A DNA stretch of 64,000 bases, taken from contig NC_041009.1 of NCBI RefSeq assembly GCF_004193775.1, positions 42,835,534-42,899,533 on the forward strand, written 5' to 3'. Below the pieces are notes generated by a model. That model had not been told where the DNA came from. It worked only from the letters and a program-made list of their open reading frames with translations, and did not search any database. Positions within the stretch are counted from its first letter, which is position 1; each line of letters begins with the position of its first letter. The translations under genes and the position numbers were made by a program. Positions 17,754 to 61,717 of this stretch are shown one piece after another. Source of the stretch: Glycine soja (taxonomy: Eukaryota; Streptophyta; Magnoliopsida; Fabales; Fabaceae).

Positions 17754-20114
17754 CTACAAGCCCTGATCTTCCATCATCTGATCATAAACCAAAGGAGGAA
17801 TCCCAACTTCCACAGTTCCATTTAGCATCTGCATCACATGCTTCATTGAAGGTCTAAGAGCCGGATTCGGATGAACACACCATAGTCCAACCAATGCCAT
17901 TTCTTCAAACCTCTTGAAATCATTCAGCACTTCTGAGTCGTGTCTCACCACTACCTCTAGCTTCCTAGACACCACACTCCTTAAAACCAAATTTGAAAGA
18001 ACCAAATCATCATCTTCGCTGTCGTTTGCATCGTGAGGAGACTCGAAGTGCCTCCTGCAACAAATAATCTCCAATAACATAACCCCAAAACTGTATATAT
18101 CAACTTTGGCAGTTATTGGTGCGCTCTTTAGCCATTCAGGTGCCATATAACCTATTGTCCCTCTTAAATTGGTGCTTGTTCTAGTTTGATCTTTGAGCAA
18201 AAGCTTGGAAAGCCCAAAATCTGCTATCTTTGCTGTGTGATTGGAATCAAGTAACACATTTTGGGGCTTGATATCACAATGTATGATTTGGGTGTGGCAC
18301 TCTTCGTGCAGGTATAGTAAGCCTCGTGCGACTCCAAGAGCCATTTCGATCCTCTGACCCCATTGAGGCCTTTCTCCCTCTCCAAACAAAAAGCTTGACA
18401 ATGCTCCGTTCGTCATCAACTCATACACAAGAACTCGATGGCTACTCTCAATGCAAAAGCCCAAAAGCCTCACCAAATTTCTGTGATGGGTACGGCCAAT
18501 AATTTTGAGCTCAGTCATGAATTCACTCTCACTTTTCTCAATTTTCTTTTCCAGTTTCTTTACTGCAATACCAATCACTGCATCGTCTATTATTAAAGTT
18601 CCGTGATAGACTTTACCCGAAGAACCCCTTCCAAGAATCCTAGTGAATCCATCTGTTGCTTCATGCAGCTCCTGGAAGGTGAATTCTCTGAAGTTGATTC
18701 CAATAGCGCTTGCATTCAAATACCGCTTTCTTCTTGCTAGTCTCTGAGTGAAAGGGTGATAGTAGACAACAAGGGCACCAAAGAAACATGCAAGAGTGGC
18801 AGTAACTGCAAGCATAACCTTCAAAAATATTCTTACATTAAAGCTCTTTTTGTTGGTAGCTTTATTAGATCTCCCATCATCAACACTGTTAGGAACTTTA
18901 AGCAGTGCTTTCTGTCCCTTCGAAGAAGAGCTATTTCTAGCATTCAGCAAAGGCAACCTCTTCTTGGCACATGTGCGGGTGGAGGTGTTATAAGTTGCAG
19001 CAATGACATTACAATCATCCATTAAAGACTTCTTACAACCTTCCAAATCAACATCATATACGCGAACAAAATTATTATCGAATTGGAAATCAGTGTCCCC
19101 AAACACCTCTACCTTGAACTTCTTCTCTGCACAGTAATTGATTGTATCTGGTGGGTGACACCCTTTGGACACATCTTGATGATCCAATGGGATATAACCC
19201 GGAATACACTCACACTTGACTGATTCATTGTCAGGAGAAGTGCACAAACCATAAACACCACAAACAAGATTCACTCTGCAGGGATCTTCCACAGCTCTCC
19301 AAACCCTCCTCCACCCAGTGGTGTCATTCTCGTTTCGTCTGGGATATGCATATTGCTGAAAATTTCCATTCTCATCTATTGTAGCGCGGTGATAGTAATC
19401 TTCCACGGGGGTTGAAGTGCTTTTTGTTAAGGTGTAGATGCTCCTAGAGCCGTTAACAAAGTGCATGAGAGCACTGGTAGCATTAAACTCCAAATTCACA
19501 TTGGGGGTGTTGGTTGAATTGTACCAGTATGCAGGGCCAGACCATTGGTACGCTTTTAGCACCAAGTTTCCATCGTCTTGCATTTGTAACATGAATTTTC
19601 CCAATGAGTAGTTTGAATCTCCTCTCTCCTTGGAATAGAGAACTTTGGTACTCTGCAACGTTTGTCCTGGTAACATTGTGTTGGAAGGAGAATTGAAACT
19701 CTGCCAGACAGATTCCGAGTTGGAGTCCTTCATGACAAAATTTCCGTCATCTTGCATGTAGGAAGAAGTTGCAGCACCACCACTGTATATGGTTTGAGCA
19801 ATAGTCTGGTTCGGGTATGCAACCACAAGGTTTCCTGCAGAAGTGAATTGGATTTGGGAATTTGCTTCCACAGGGGGACTCTGGAAGTACCATGCCAAAG
19901 TTCTGTCTGGGATTTTTCCAAACCATATTCCCACAAGAAAGAGACCAGTGCGAAGATCATAGAATCCGAATTCAAAATCGCCCGAGGGTGACTTCCAGGT
20001 AGAATTTGAACCGGCAGTGATGTTTGTGTTTAATTGTATGACATCTAAGCCATTCAGAAGTGAAAGTGAAAGTGAAAGTGAAAGTATGAAAGGAAGAAAG
20101 ATAGCTGAAGACAT
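17754..20114 (-). CDS. G-type lectin receptor-like Ser/Thr kinase (LECRK/RLK1-like), copy 1
   Basis: A single exon encodes 786 residues from the ATG at 20114; the in-frame codon further upstream is TTG. Order: signal peptide (1-24), B-type mannose-binding lectin (about 25-145), glycoprotein and Cys-rich EGF/PAN-like region (about 275-390), transmembrane segment (about 432-452), kinase (about 494-770). Kinase motifs are complete: GRGSSG loop, Lys519, [18 protein letters not shown] in place of HRD marks a non-RD kinase, as usual in immune-type receptors. Oddities are LAWYFQSPP where the sister gene has LVWSANRDN, and DDCNVIAAT where it has DDCLCMAAV, losing one PAN-region cysteine. The protein should sit in the plasma membrane and sense extracellular ligands; the ligand is unknown. 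It is a tandem duplicate of 22687-25168. Confidence 0.95.
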   Translation of the reverse strand: MSSAIFLPFILSLSLSLSLLNGLDVIQLNTNITAGSNSTWKSPSGDFEFGFYDLRTGLFLVGIWFGKIPDRTLAWYFQSPPVEANSQIQFTSAGNLVVAYPNQTIAQTIYSGGAATSSYMQDDGNFVMKDSNSESVWQSFNSPSNTMLPGQTLQSTKVLYSKERGDSNYSLGKFMLQMQDDGNLVLKAYQWSGPAYWYNSTNTPNVNLEFNATSALMHFVNGSRSIYTLTKSTSTPVEDYYHRATIDENGNFQQYAYPRRNENDTTGWRRVWRAVEDPCRVNLVCGVYGLCTSPDNESVKCECIPGYIPLDHQDVSKGCHPPDTINYCAEKKFKVEVFGDTDFQFDNNFVRVYDVDLEGCKKSLMDDCNVIAATYNTSTRTCAKKRLPLLNARNSSSSKGQKALLKVPNSVDDGRSNKATNKKSFNVRIFLKVMLAVTATLACFFGALVVYYHPFTQRLARRKRYLNASAIGINFREFTFQELHEATDGFTRILGRGSSGKVYHGTLIIDDAVIGIAVKKLEKKIEKSESEFMTELKIIGRTHHRNLVRLLGFCIESSHRVLVYELMTNGALSSFLFGEGERPQWGQRIEMALGVARGLLYLHEECHTQIIHCDIKPQNVLLDSNHTAKIADFGLSKLLLKDQTRTSTNLRGTIGYMAPEWLKSAPITAKVDIYSFGVMLLEIICCRRHFESPHDANDSEDDDLVLSNLVLRSVVSRKLEVVVRHDSEVLNDFKRFEEMALVGLWCVHPNPALRPSMKHVMQMLNGTVEVGIPPLVYDQMMEDQGL
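20060..20083 (-). repeat. hexanucleotide repeat coding the signal-peptide core
   Basis: (GTGAAA)4 on the plus strand reads as alternating Leu-Ser codons on the coding strand and forms the hydrophobic core LSLSLSLSLL of the signal peptide. Confidence 0.85.
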
Positions 20115-22686: not shown

Positions 22687-25168
22687 TTAGTTGAGTGGGG
22701 GAACACCCACTTCTATATTTCCTTCCAACATCTGTGCCACCACTTTCATAGATGGTCGAAGAGTTGAATTCGGATACACGCACCACAATCCAACCATTAC
22801 CATTCTTTCAAACCGTTTGAAATCACTTTCAACTTCAAGATCATCAACCACAGCTGCTCTTAAACTGTTTTCTTTTGCCAGATACAGAACCCAATCTATG
22901 AGTATCATGTCATCACCACCCGTTGTTTCGTCATTGATTCGGTGTAACTCGATGTGCCTTCTGCAAAATATGGTTTCCAACAACACAACGCCAAAGCTGT
23001 AGATATCAACCTTTGTAGTAACAGGTGCATTTTTTAGCCATTCTGGTGCCATATAACCCACTGTCCCTCTAGCATTGGTGCTTGTTCGAGTCTTGTCTTT
23101 CATTAGAAGCTTTGCCAGTCCAAAATCTGAAATCTTTGCGGTGTAACTCGAGTCGAGAAGAACATTCTGAGGCTTTATGTCGCAATGGATGATTTGTTGG
23201 TCACACTCCTCATGCAGATACAATAAGCCTCTTGCAATCTCAATCACAATTCTTACTCTACTCTCCCAACTGGGTCTATGATCCCCTTCTCCAAAAAGAA
23301 AGTTGGAGAGTGTCCCATTTTCCATTTTCTCATAAACCAAAAGCCTGTGATTTTGTTCATTGCAATAGCCCAATAGCCCAACGAGATTTCTATGATGAGT
23401 ATGAGCAATAACTTGAACTTCTGTAACAAATTCTTTCTCACCTTGCTCTTCTACTTGCTCCAGTTGTTTGACCGCAACCTCAACCTGTTGACAGAGATAT
23501 AAAGTAGTTGGATGGTTAAAGGAAAAAGAAAGAGGGAAAAGGTCATGGGTTCAATCCTCTCTACTAACAAAATCTAACATTTGCCAATTAAAAAAAAAAC
23601 AAAAAAAACTCAACCTGTTGACCCTCCAAGTTTAGAACCCCGCTATACACTGTACCATAGGCACCTCGACCGAGTTTGTCCTTGAATCCATTTGTTGCTT
23701 CTCTCAGCTGCTGGAATGAGAATGCCTTTAGGTTGATATCCATAGGCTTTGGCTTTGGTGGCTCCCCTTTGTGTATGAGATGTTGACAAATGATGGGGTG
23801 ATGATAAATAAAAGTAGCAGCAAACAATACAGCAAGTAGGGAACAAGAGACAAGAGCCACTATCAAAACAACCAAAGATTGTGAATCCTTTTCATTTTCC
23901 ATATCATTGTCAAGAAGAGGAACTTTAATCAGCATCACCCGATTGCTAGTGTCAGGGAAGATTTTTATGGCGTTTATAACTGGCCACGTTTTCTTGTGGC
24001 AATCTGAGCCATAAAAAACAGCAGCCATGCAGAGACAGTCATCCATCAGTTCCCTCTTGCAACTTTCCAGATCCATGTTGTTTATAACTTGTAGATCAAA
24101 ATAAAAATAATCATTATTGGGTATATCAGCATCTTGAATTGCTTTCACTTCAACCTTAGAGGAATTTGCAGCACACAAGCCATTGGCCTCCGTACTAAGA
24201 TAACACCCTTTGGAAGGTACATTTGGATCCAAATGTGTATAGCCAGGCAAGCATTCACAGCTATATGCTTGGTTGTCAGATGAATTGCAAAAGCCATACA
24301 CCCCACAAAGCGCGGTCACTCTGCAGGGCAGTTCTATGGCGTTCCAGACAGATGTCCAATCGCTTCCATTTTCTTTTGGGTGAATCAACTTCTGCAAGTT
24401 TCCCCGATCATCGATCAGCACGCGATGATAATAGTCTTCGATCGCGCCCGTTAAAGGATCGACTGTCATGTTATGGATGGTTTGGTTGGTTCCATTGACC
24501 GCGTAAAGAAAAGCTGTTGTGCTGTTGAAAACAATTCTCACATCTGTGTTTTGGTTAGTTCCACTGGACCAATAACCAGCATCGGTGAACCGAAAAGCTT
24601 TGAGAACAATGTTTCCATCAGATTGTTGGATCTCCAAACTGTATTGCCCTTTTGAGTAGTCCACTGATCCATTGGCATTGGAATAGAGCTTCTGACCCAT
24701 CTTCAAAGTTTGGCCTAATAGAAGAGTATCCGTGGGAGAATCAAAGCTCTGCCATATAAATTCAGAAAGTGAATTCCTCAACACCAAATTCCCATTATCC
24801 TCCATTTTTGCAGTTGCAGCAGGAGTGTTTGTTCCTTTGTAGATTTGAAATGTAGCCCCTTTGACAGGTTGGAGCAGAAATTCGCCACTTGATGTGAGAT
24901 TGATGGTTGATCCAATTTCAACCGGATTGTCGCGATTTGCTGACCAAACCAGTGTTTTGTTTGGAACCTTGTCAAACCAAATTCCAACAAGATAGTGGTC
25001 ACTAAGAAGGTGGTAGAAGCCAAAGGCATAATCACCATTTGATGATCTCCAAGATGAATTATTGGTGCCAGCCACAATGCTGGAACCTAGTTCAATTGAG
25101 TTAGCATTTCTTAGAACACTGGAACATAGAAAGAAAGAAACAAAGAGAACAAGGGGTTTTGTAACCAT
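22687..25168 (-). CDS. G-type lectin receptor-like kinase, copy 2, interrupted by a SINE
   Basis: Two coding blocks, 25168-23615 (518 codons) and 23484-22687 (266 codons), are separated by 130 nt. Joined, they give a complete 783-residue protein: signal peptide (1-24), B-lectin, EGF/PAN-like Cys region (about 288-390), transmembrane segment (about 431-454), kinase from about 498. Kinase motifs are GRGAYG (loop), Lys524, [11 protein letters not shown] and APEW, again a non-RD kinase. The break falls between the glycine loop and the invariant lysine. Without splicing, the frame runs into SINE sequence and stops after eight more codons, giving a receptor without a kinase. The gap is bounded by CAG|GT on both sides (see SINE entry), so exact splicing is possible. 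Neighbour copy 1 has no intron there. Annotated as a spliced gene; the alternative is a disrupted gene. Confidence 0.8.
23479..23622 (+). mobile_element. tRNA-derived SINE with 14-bp target-site duplication
   Basis: The 14-bp direct repeats CTCAACCTGTTGAC at 23479-23492 and 23609-23622 flank a 116-bp body (23493-23608). The body carries an A-box-like TAGTTGGATGG (23505-23515), a B box GGTTCAATCC (23548-23557) and an A-rich tail at 23589-23608. These are the hallmarks of a Pol III-derived retroposon. It lies antisense to the receptor kinase exon and shifts the frame because 130 nt were added. Confidence 0.88.
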
Positions 25169-57989: not shown

Positions 57990-60900
57990 TCCTCCCGCAA
58001 GTTGTATAATCTGGATGAGAGATGCAACTTGGACAGTAGCGATTCGAACCGAGGGCGAAGTAGAGGCTTTGTTAGAATATCAGCAAGTTGATCATCGGTA
58101 GACACAAAAGACACTCAAAACTTGCCATGTTGAACATGTTCTCGGACAAAGTGGTAGGCTAAGGCTATATGTTTCATCCGAGAGTGGAAGACAGGATTAG
58201 CATTGAGATTTGTGGCACCAAGATTGTCACAGTATATGATTGGATTGGCAGTGGGCATGTGACCAAGTTCTGTGAACAAGGAAAGAAACCATAATAGTTC
58301 ACTAGCCGTGTCAGCCAAGGCTTTGTATTCTGCTTCAGTTGATGATCGAGCAACAGAGCGTTGTTTGCGGGAGCTCCAGGAGATGTGAGTGTTACCGAGA
58401 TACAACAAGTAACCAGTGGTTGAAACATAATCATCCTTGTCACCAGCTCAATCAGCATCCGAGTAGGCATGAAAGGTCAAAGGAGCAGTCGCTGAGATGA
58501 AGACTCCTTTGTCACAAGAGCCCGCCAAATATCGGAGCACTCGTTTGAGTGCAGACCAATGCGCCGTTCTTGGATTTTGCATGAACTGTGCGAGTTTGTT
58601 AGTGCTGAAGGCGATATCTGGACGTGTAAGACTCAAGTATTGAAGGCTTCCAACCAGTGTGCGGTACTCCTTTGGAGAGGGTAGGAGATCACCAGAATCC
58701 TTAAGTAATTGAACACTCGCTGACAAAGGAGTGGATGTTGGTTTTGTATTTATCATGCCTGATTTATGTAGCAGATCAATGATATATTTCCTTTGTGAAA
58801 GAAACATTCCTGCAGCGGAAGGAATTACTTCGACACCCAAGAAATAACTGAGACATCCAAGATCTTTTAACGAAAACCGAGCAGCAAGTGTGGCAATGAG
58901 TTTGGACAGCTCTACAGATGAATTTCCAGTGATAATTATATCATCAACATATACTAATAAGTAAAGTGTAACCTCTGGTTTTTGGTAGATGAAAAGAGAT
59001 GCATCTGCAGTGGAATTGACAAAACCAAGGGAGAGCAGGAATACGCGAAGCTCCGTATACCAGGCGCGGGGTCCTTGCTTCAGCCCATAGAGTGCCTTTT
59101 TGAGGCGACAAACATGATCAGGAAAGTTTTTGTTGACAAAACCAGGTGGTTGTATCATGAAGACTTCCTCCTTAAGTGTCCCTTGAAGAAATGCATTGTT
59201 GACATCAAGCTGACGTATGGGCCACCCTTGATGAACTGCAAGAGTTAAGACAATGCGAATGGTCAACGGTTTAACAACGGGGCTAAAAGTTTCTGTATAG
59301 TCCCAACCAGAGCGTTGGTGAAACCCTTTGGCGACTAACCGAGCCTTGTAACGATCAATTGATCCGTCTGGATTTCGTTTGATTCGAAATACCCATTTAC
59401 AGCCAACCAAATTTTGATCAGAGGACCGACTGACAAGATCCCAAGTGTTGTTGTGGTGTAAGGCATCAAATTCGGCTTGCATGGCTGAGCGCCAATCAGG
59501 GTCGCGAAGGGCCTGGGTGATGGTGTTGGGTTCAATGGGAGAGGAGGCTTGGACATGGAGATTAAGCTTTTGGATGGATTTGATAATGTTGTTTTTAGAC
59601 CGAGTGATGATCCCACCTCCATTTGGGTTGACAATGGTTTGGAGTGGTGGAGTAGAGAGTTACGGGGATGATTGTGAGGTTGGAGGAGGAGATTGAGTGG
59701 GGTTTGTGGGTTCGGTGGAGGACTGGGCCATATATGGGGAGTTGGTGATGGATGGGGAGGAAGGGGCAGGAGATGAATCTTCCGGTGGGTTCATGGGTTG
59801 TAAGATGGAGAGTTGAAGTGGGCCTGTTTGTTGCTCCGGACTTGGACTAACGTGAGTTACTAGGGAGTTGAACGGGAATTCAGATTTAACGAACTTCACA
59901 TGCCGAGAGGTGTAGATCCTTCCTGTTGTGGGATCGAGACACAAATATGCATGTTGATCAGCCGAGTAACCTACAAAAACACACATAGCAGACTTTGGTG
60001 CAAGTTTATGGTTAGCATATGGTTTAGTCCAGGGAAAACACAAACATCCAAAACACTTTAACTTATGATAATCCGGACTAATGTTGAGCAATTTAGAATA
60101 GGGTGATTGGTACCCAAGAATTGGAGTTGGGAGGCGATTTATGAGATAAGCGGCGGTGGTCATGGCGTGAGGCCAATAGGTGAGGGGCAAGCCCGAGTGA
60201 TGGAGAAGAGAGAGACCGGTTTCAGCAATGTGACAATTTCGGCGTTCTGAAATTCCATTATGTTTAGGTGTATGAGGTGGCGTTGTATGATGACTTATAC
60301 CATGATTTAGTAAAAAAGGGCGAAGACCAATATATTCGCCACCATTGTCTGTGTAAAGAATTTTTATTTTGTGATGATAGAAATTTTCAACTAGCGATTT
60401 AAATTTGGGAAATATAGTTTGCACATCAGATTTTTGTTTCATTGGATATAGCCAAATATAACGAGTAAAATGATCAACAAACATGCAATAATAGCGAAGA
60501 CCTCAATTGATAAAATAGGAGAAGTCCAGACATCAGAGAAAATTATTTCTAATGGATAACAAGATTGAAGAGTGGATTCATGGAATGGAAGTTTATGACT
60601 TTTGTTAATTTGACACGAGTGACAATCGGATTGCGCAAATTTATTTGAGCCTAAGGAAAAATGTTTCTGAACAAATTTGAAAATAGAGGATGAAGGGTGC
60701 CCAAGCCTATGATGCCATGATGCAGAGGATTCTGTTCGAACCGTGTGGACGGAGGGTGAGGTGGCGGGCCAGAGATAGAGTCCATCCACACATGAGCCTT
60801 TATGGGTTGTGTGACCCGTCTGTAAGTCCTTCACATAAAAAGAGTTTGGCAGGAAAACAACAACAGAGTTGGTTTGTTGGGTAAGTTTAGAGACAGAGAT

Positions 60901-61653
60901 TATTTTTTGTTTCATGGAAGGAACACACAGAGCATTAGACAAGGATAAATCATTAAGTAAAAGTGTTCCAGAATGAGTGATGTTTAAACCTGAACCATTA
61001 CCCATAAACAGTGAGTCAGGACCAGTGTACGGATGATGAAGCGCTAGATTATCGAGATCATTGGTTACGTGATGTGTCGCTCCACTGTCAAACAGAAAAT
61101 CATGTTGCGATGGGCCGGCAGTTGCAGTATTGACCTGAACCTGTCCAGTGTGAGCCGGAGAGTTACGAGGTGGCGGTGGGACACTAGGATGCTGCTGCTG
61201 GAAGGTTTTGAACTGAGAGAGAACATGACCTTTGATGTTGCACCACTGACAGCGGCCGAGAAAAGGTTTGCGAGATGCTTTGGCATAGGTGTTTTTGAGA
61301 AGGATCCAGAGATCATGCGAGGTCTTGGTGTAAGACACCAAGGAGGCCACTTCATTAGAGAGAGTGGTGAGGAGAGCACCATATATAAGGCGGTCTTGTC
61401 GACGCCAGGTTTGGTAAGCAGGATTCTGAGTTGTTACCGGAAGTGATGCAGTGGTGGGGGTCGTTTCCGACGGCGCAGGAAAAGATCCATCTGGATATTG
61501 AAGGAGATCATAGCCATCAAGGAGAGCTTCAACTTGTTGTTTCCAATTAGGATAATTGTTGGGAAGAAGTTTGGTGACATTGGTGAAAGTGATGCAAGCA
61601 AGGGGTTTGGATGGCTCATGGGGGTTGGGAATGAAGGAGTTGTTGTCGGCCAT
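57971..61653 (-). pseudogene. copia gag-pol polyprotein, inactivated
   Basis: Translation starts at the ATG at 61653 (the codon three before it is TTG) and ends inside the 3' LTR. Order: gag start (PNWKQQVEALLDGYDL), zinc knuckle, protease DSGATHHVT, integrase HHxx...CxxC (WHHRLGHPSS; CHSCQINK) and VDHFTRYIW, RT (QLDVNNAFLQG, YVDDIIITG), RNase H ([10 protein letters not shown]). Lesions are several. Gag loses most of its central UBN2 region, passing from LLKNTYAKASR directly to the knuckle. The knuckle CQWCNIKGHVLSQF lacks its last Cys. A frame change falls near 60505. There are stops at about 59660 (TAA), 58448 (TGA, within DAD..AGD) and about 58112 (TGA). Confidence 0.93.
57990..57998 (-). 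other. polypurine tract
   Basis: On the coding strand GCGGGAGGA ends exactly where the 3' LTR begins (TATCAATC). This is the expected plus-strand primer site. Confidence 0.85.
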
Positions 61654-61717
61654 GGGAGGCAAGGGTGGGGAACGACGTCCTTAATTGAAGAAATAGGGAA
61701 TGGATGGATCGTTTAGG

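Follow-up and report, generated by a model that had tools for sequence, protein, structure and literature searches.

A SINE inserted antisense into the kinase exon of a Glycine soja lectin receptor kinase gene as a probable newborn intron

The window analysed here is a stretch of 64,000 nucleotides of Glycine soja, and it carries, on its minus strand, two tandemly arranged lectin receptor kinase genes, one of which is interrupted within its kinase exon by a short insertion (Table 1; in splice-site notation throughout, a slash marks the cleavage point). The interrupted host is the G-type lectin receptor kinase Glyma.08G307400. In the part upstream of the insertion, Pfam assigns a B_lectin domain (PF01453) and an S-locus glycoprotein domain (PF00954), and the signal region, the transmembrane segment and the first kinase strands were recognised by eye; the part downstream matches PF00069/PF07714 and keeps the kinase motifs searched for, including VAVK with the catalytic lysine and APEWL. 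When both parts are joined across the insertion, the conceptual product of 783 aa agrees with Glycine max GLYMA_08G307400v4 at 780/783 positions, three residues being different. The neighbouring gene, which had been called intronless in the preliminary description and is indeed a single uninterrupted frame, matches Glyma.08G307300 in its span of 2361 bp, equal to both published Wm82 spans. Elsewhere in the window, the minus strand at 58448-61662 carries pieces of a Ty1/copia-like retrotransposon, spread over three open frames and recognised by eye in their translations.

Table 1. Positions of the features discussed in the text, numbered from the first letter of the window unless a contig is given.
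Feature	Position	Strand	Remark
Window	C8 contig 42,835,534-42,899,533
Exon 1	23615..25168	-	signal region, B_lectin, S-locus glycoprotein domain, transmembrane segment, first kinase strands
14-bp TSD, exon-1 side	23609..23622		provides candidate donor CAG/GTTGAG
Predicted intron, 130 nt, GT-AG	23485..23614	-	46.9% U, 68.5% A+U
U-tract (antisense SINE A-tail)	23590..23608	-	begins at intron position 7
Premature stop if intron retained	23588..23590	-
SINE copy, 116 bp, antisense to gene	23493..23608	+	inside kinase exon
Box-B-like motif GTTCRA (GTTCAA)	23549..23554	+
Candidate branch site UUAAC	23515..23519	-	A at -32 from acceptor
Box-A-like motif RVTGG (GATGG)	23511..23515	+
14-bp TSD, exon-2 side	23479..23492		coding strand GTCAACAG/GTTGAG; provides candidate acceptor CAG/
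Exon 2	22687..23484	-	rest of kinase domain
Neighbouring tandem LecRK	17754..20114	-	one uninterrupted frame, without insertion, 48% identical to interrupted gene

The proposal that the interruption is a SINE flanked by 14-bp target-site duplications (TSDs) was borne out. The direct repeats, CTCAACCTGTTGAC, are identical at 14/14 positions and occur exactly twice in the window when both strands are searched, and copies of the element are found elsewhere in the genome. The sequence between the repeats contains box-A-like and box-B-like motifs. Their distance falls within the 25-50 nt expected of a plant SINE by published spacing rules (PMC8825457), and a 3' A-tail (A10 C A8) follows. The complete pattern of box A, box B, A-tail and a TSD of 10 bp or longer is present a single time in the window, against none in 60 dinucleotide shuffles, and on this ground, together with the TSD-bearing family copies described below, a chance repeat was rejected. 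ARAGORN reported 0 tRNAs in the window, and Rfam gave four matches over 23400-23700, none reaching its gathering score; the label 'tRNA-derived', as far as it may be applied, comes solely from the box motifs. How unusual was the target? In three coding sequences taken from the window, 3.5-4.5% of positions would give a random 14-bp target with AGGT inside it, and the presence of AGGT is, by itself, uncommon and not extraordinary.

The element belongs to a multi-copy family, of which a genome search yielded 178 first-look candidates and at least 40 scored places, the copy in Glyma.08G307400 included. The other 39 places are 74-87% identical to it over the matched part. Examined together with some 100 bp of flanking sequence at either end, 17/39 have a TSD of 9 bp or longer near the expected edges, against 6/400 chimeric controls; 9/39 have a TSD of 7-8 bp and 13/39 none of at least 7 bp. 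Both the dispersal of the copies and the TSDs around them are what membership in a plant SINE family entails. The copy in Glyma.08G307400 departs from a leave-one-out family consensus at 13/92 sites, which makes it 28th of 40 when the copies are ordered by increasing distance, and it has 0 transversions in these 92 compared sites, as do 5/39 of the other copies. All of its differences (13/13) are C:G to T:A changes, compared with 303/470 among the 39 others (post hoc Fisher p 0.006), and 11 of the 13 are C to U when read along the host transcript. The imbalance of G>A versus C>T relative to those copies does not reach significance (p 0.24), a similar pattern (11/11 C:G to T:A) is seen in another copy (L009), and methylation decay fits the all-C:G-to-T:A pattern as well. 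Strand-biased decay as an adaptation to life in an intron was considered and left as a weak idea.

Is the insertion derived, as had been supposed, or has the interval always been there? The same genome contains a homeologous, broken piece of the gene on contig C18 (12,974,784-12,975,455), which has stops and 83% protein identity to the interrupted gene. At the DNA level it is 88.7% identical over 805 columns, and the alignment passes the insertion point without an insert, a 9-nt gap lying about 20 nt beyond it; the sole SINE match in 5.5 kb of C18 is a 21-nt A-rich stretch more than 2 kb off. Since the homeologous site is empty, the insertion is derived and younger than the split of the homeologues. 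Divergence from the chromosome 8 gene amounts to a dS of 0.17 (dN/dS 0.275), which, on a rate that we assume to be 6.1e-9, corresponds to about 14 My and fits the Glycine genome duplication at 13 My. Of the 120 best-matching homologous proteins out of 1322, 118 are aligned across the site, with gaps of at most two positions in 113, of 3-5 in four and of 26 in one; homeologue and proteins alike display the insertion-free state expected of the ancestor when an element has landed in AGGT. The protein with the 26-position gap, Abrus precatorius LECRK4 (P0018, 720 aa), lacks, at this site, residues around the segment with the catalytic lysine, which represents a deletion or possibly a mis-called intron. 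The divergence of the SINE copy itself (13/92) would translate into about 26 My on an assumed rate and, because this exceeds the bracket of about 14 My set by the homeologue, the SINE clock is unreliable here. In the wider C18 fragment (12972500-12978000), the ectodomain portion does not align within the 5.5 kb, stops and deletions disrupt the kinase portion, and sequence flanking the gene on its far side can still be aligned at 72-79%. The insertion target reads CACGTT in C18 and CAGGTT in the chromosome 8 gene.

The length of the predicted intron equals that of the 116-bp insert plus one 14-bp repeat copy, and its removal joins 25168-23615 to 23484-22687 in a reading frame of 2352 nt, i.e. 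783 codons and a stop, leaving the original codons ...GQQ/VEVAVK. This agrees with the earlier reading that the TSDs would supply both splice sites and that the cut would restore the pre-insertion codons exactly: AGGT is doubled in the TSD, a candidate splice site lies in each copy, and the full 783-aa frame is recovered. Among the GT-AG pairs tested around the insert (donors from -90, acceptors to +120), no other returns all 783 aa; the remaining frame-keeping pairs were rejected, as they yield 740-781 aa with a loss of 2-43 residues. If the interval were retained, as had also been foreseen, the conceptual product of 526 aa would end in ...VEFFLFFF and lose the kinase, and the message would run on for 904 nt, counted from the premature stop codon to the end of the regular one.

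How strong are the signals on offer? The donor CAG/GUUGAG had been described as weak, a judgement that holds by one measure and fails by another. On a plant position weight matrix it scores 0.66 against 8.2 bits for the consensus, ranking 15th of 128 GTs in the gene in a tie with its TSD twin, and UGAG at positions +3 to +6 is a poor fit to the consensus; by U1 duplex energy, in contrast, it is 2nd of the 128. Among the gene's 142 AGs, the acceptor ranks 2nd by its score. With respect to the signals attributed to the SINE, the candidate branch-site A was found where it had been placed and is separated from the acceptor by a stretch without AG, no full CURAY match being present in the intron, whereas the T-rich stretch from the A-tail lies at the donor end and not beside the acceptor. 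Of the 25 nt that follow GTTGAG, 20 are U, and the U content of the predicted intron exceeds that of every 130-nt window of coding sequence (maximum 43.8%). Pyrimidines reach 90% at -60 and again at -50, in windows of 20 nt, and 67-70% nearer the acceptor. In Arabidopsis, RBP45d binds U-rich RNA 3' of the 5' splice site and promotes the use of that site with U1, and site strength is, in the part of that report considered here, a poor predictor where U-rich sequence follows (PMC9813592). It is by likeness to this effect that a role for the antisense A-tail as a U-tract is proposed.

In the protein database the gene is represented by its spliced form of 783 aa, under annotation-derived sources and one further tag, lgn, which presumably stands for assembled sequencing reads, of RNA or of DNA. 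A search with the 526-aa retained product (7994 candidates scored) gave 18 proteins at E <= 1e-200, none of them named as a truncated soybean form, and the second half, used as a query in its turn, matched 15 proteins at E <= 1e-100 with 78% as the highest identity and no separate soybean half among them; by length, the latter search could not return full-length proteins, and clustering at 90% together with the candidate limit could hide truncated or half forms from soybean. For the cultivar Williams 82, a QTL study from 2025 equates Gm_Wm82_23352 with Glyma.08G307400 and, in the portion used here, places it in Wm82.a5 at 44,994,964-44,997,445, a span of 2482 bp (PMC11788231). From start to stop the gene in the window has the same length, 2482 = 2352 + 130, and the neighbouring gene, taken as a control, agrees exactly with its Wm82 span. 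As 2482 is not a multiple of 3, a start-to-stop model must drop something, and this match of gene spans makes it very probable that Williams 82 carries the insertion and that its model removes the 130 nt. The same portion of the study lists a longer Wm82.a2 model of 2837 bp (PMC11788231), a span that suggests annotated UTRs and hence transcript evidence. The spacing between the two genes differs by 67 bp between the window and Wm82.a5, and with the three residue differences this shows that the window is more than a mere copy of the Wm82 sequence.

If splicing keeps the receptor whole, is the kinase half treated as functional sequence? At columns invariant in other homologues (16 compared, with a residue in at least 13), the window protein departs at 4/146 after the site and 6/168 before it; after the site, 14/16 of the other homologues show 0-5 departures, P0017 shows 10 and P0018 17. 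Measured against the C18 pseudogene, Glyma.08G307400 has 3/138 departures versus 9/138 after the site, and 0/18 versus 2/18 before it. The kinase half thus still looks constrained, and these counts are support and not proof, because they include time before the insertion.

Taken together, the TSDs, the empty homeologous site, the recovered frame and the match of gene spans make it probable that the interval is a SINE-born intron spliced at sites supplied by the TSDs. That the SINE inserted here is plain from the DNA; that it very likely became a functional new intron, with whatever efficiency and whatever help from the U-tract, is what we infer from sequence. According to the mechanism that we favour, a SINE of a multi-copy family would have retrotransposed in antisense into the kinase exon at a target containing CAG/GT, and the 14-bp duplication would have placed a proto-splice site at both ends. 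The spliceosome could then take the upstream copy as donor and the downstream one (...CAACAG/G) as acceptor, removing the 130 nt with the original codons kept. The weak donor would probably be rescued by the U-tract, through which U1 might be recruited by RBP45/47-UBP1-type proteins, and the U-rich, pyrimidine-rich body of the SINE may also give the branch site and the 3' end.

The insertion might instead go unspliced, or negligibly spliced, in which case the gene would be a recently broken allele encoding a receptor of at most 526 aa without a kinase, and the 130-nt intron would be an artefact of prediction. Gene predictors routinely bridge frameshifts with any GT-AG pair, and neither the gene models nor the database protein are independent proof of splicing; the read-derived tag on the latter could stem from an insertion-free allele. 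Moreover, a very young insertion would show an intact frame and identical TSDs even without splicing, and the 14/14 identity of the repeats and the lack of transversions allow a young age, just as the weak donor would accord with a lack of splicing. We nevertheless regard this reading as quite improbable: the insertion is apparently common to two haplotypes that are three residues and 67 bp of spacing apart, each with a full-length product, the kinase half is conserved, donor (by U1 pairing) and acceptor each rank second among their kind in the gene, and the SINE copy, which differs from its family consensus at 13/92 sites, is 28th of 40 in closeness to it. A milder variant, which overlaps with the SINE-born intron preferred here, holds that splicing is partial and that the retained form matters, yielding, beside the full kinase, a kinase-less lectin receptor that is secreted or membrane-bound, perhaps under tissue or stress regulation. 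It seems doubtful, albeit a good deal less so than a complete lack of splicing. Retention would leave 518 N-terminal residues, and in them both lectin-type domains, whole before the early stop, and a weak donor commonly leads to partial retention; yet the truncated form was not met with among soybean proteins, within the limits of the search given above, and a retained message with its long stretch beyond the early stop would be a likely target of decay.

There is, finally, the idea that the gene family has long had an intron in the form of the 130-nt interval and that nothing was newly inserted. Some soybean lectin genes do have introns, as exemplified by a two-exon gene in the part of a survey that bears on them, where a soybean lectin retrogene, Glyma08g46960, is also named (PMC2846932). 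Nothing was found in favour of an old intron at this particular site, and it is contradicted by the exact TSDs, the membership in a SINE family, the empty homeologous DNA and the uninterrupted neighbour. With a probability that we consider close to nil, it was rejected on the empty homeologue and the TSDs.

The origin of introns is an old question, and few cases have been caught early enough for their mechanism to be read. In plants, Iwamoto et al. reportedly described, in 1998 and 1999, a p-SINE1-like intron in the rice catalase gene CatA, and Giroux et al. are said to have reported in 1994 that Ds is spliced as an intron in maize. Going by these titles alone, the rice example likewise involves a plant SINE-like sequence that forms an intron of a protein-coding gene, and differs from Glyma.08G307400 in gene, family and lineage; the maize example shares the making of an intron by an inserted plant transposon, Ds being, however, a DNA transposon and not a SINE. 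The closest parallel is the AGGT model of intron gain by transposon insertion, in which an element enters AGGT and the duplicate gives an AG/GT donor and an AG/G acceptor, so that the coding sequence is exactly restored; the entry consulted in a review of this model lists 35 events from Oryza, Drosophila, Oikopleura and Zea, with soybean unnamed there (PMC3443670). Glyma.08G307400 does not depart from this model in principle. What sets it apart from the cases listed is that the element is an antisense SINE and that an empty homeologous site is available in the same genome. The preliminary description had drawn a comparison with introners, some families of which, in algae, fungi and protists, take both splice sites from the TSD or the insertion site (PMC9860276). 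Introners are families found repeatedly as introns, whereas we deal with one exonic copy of a SINE family and no demonstrated introner family, and this copy fits the long-described AGGT model. The introner survey, in the part relevant here, found none in land plants by a method that needs at least four similar introns (PMC9860276). Among the matches listed by a literature search on SINEs, intron gain and soybean or Glycine, the event is undescribed, the matches being gene-family surveys and other papers.

What is the significance of one more intron whose mechanism was already known? Perhaps it lies in the fact that element, duplications, empty homeologue (about 14 My by the assumed rate) and a host gene of functional appearance are all present together, which makes this a young and time-bracketed example. 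It is also one in which splicing, how efficient it is and what the U-tract contributes are open to direct testing, since the public RNA data for this crop are very large. One may go further and suppose that the antisense insertion of a poly(A)-tailed SINE is an intron-ready configuration in plants, in which the TSD copies a proto-splice site, the U-tract of the tail sits where RBP45/47-UBP1 proteins boost weak donors, ordinary SINEs repeatedly give birth to introns in exons, and later C-to-U decay renders them more intron-like; as a generalisation from this locus, we hold it to be unlikely, if worth stating. A more practical consequence is that Glyma.08G307400 is among the sucrose candidates of the 2025 QTL study, so that the right gene structure matters for interpreting its variants (PMC11788231). 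That study is the sole main text found to name the gene, and it gives no expression value in the parts covered. Its residue 495 is F, as in the spliced product, at a position upstream of the insertion site, and in the accession PI 506593 the gene, lying within a sucrose QTL, is listed with F495S and an unspecified indel (PMC11788231).
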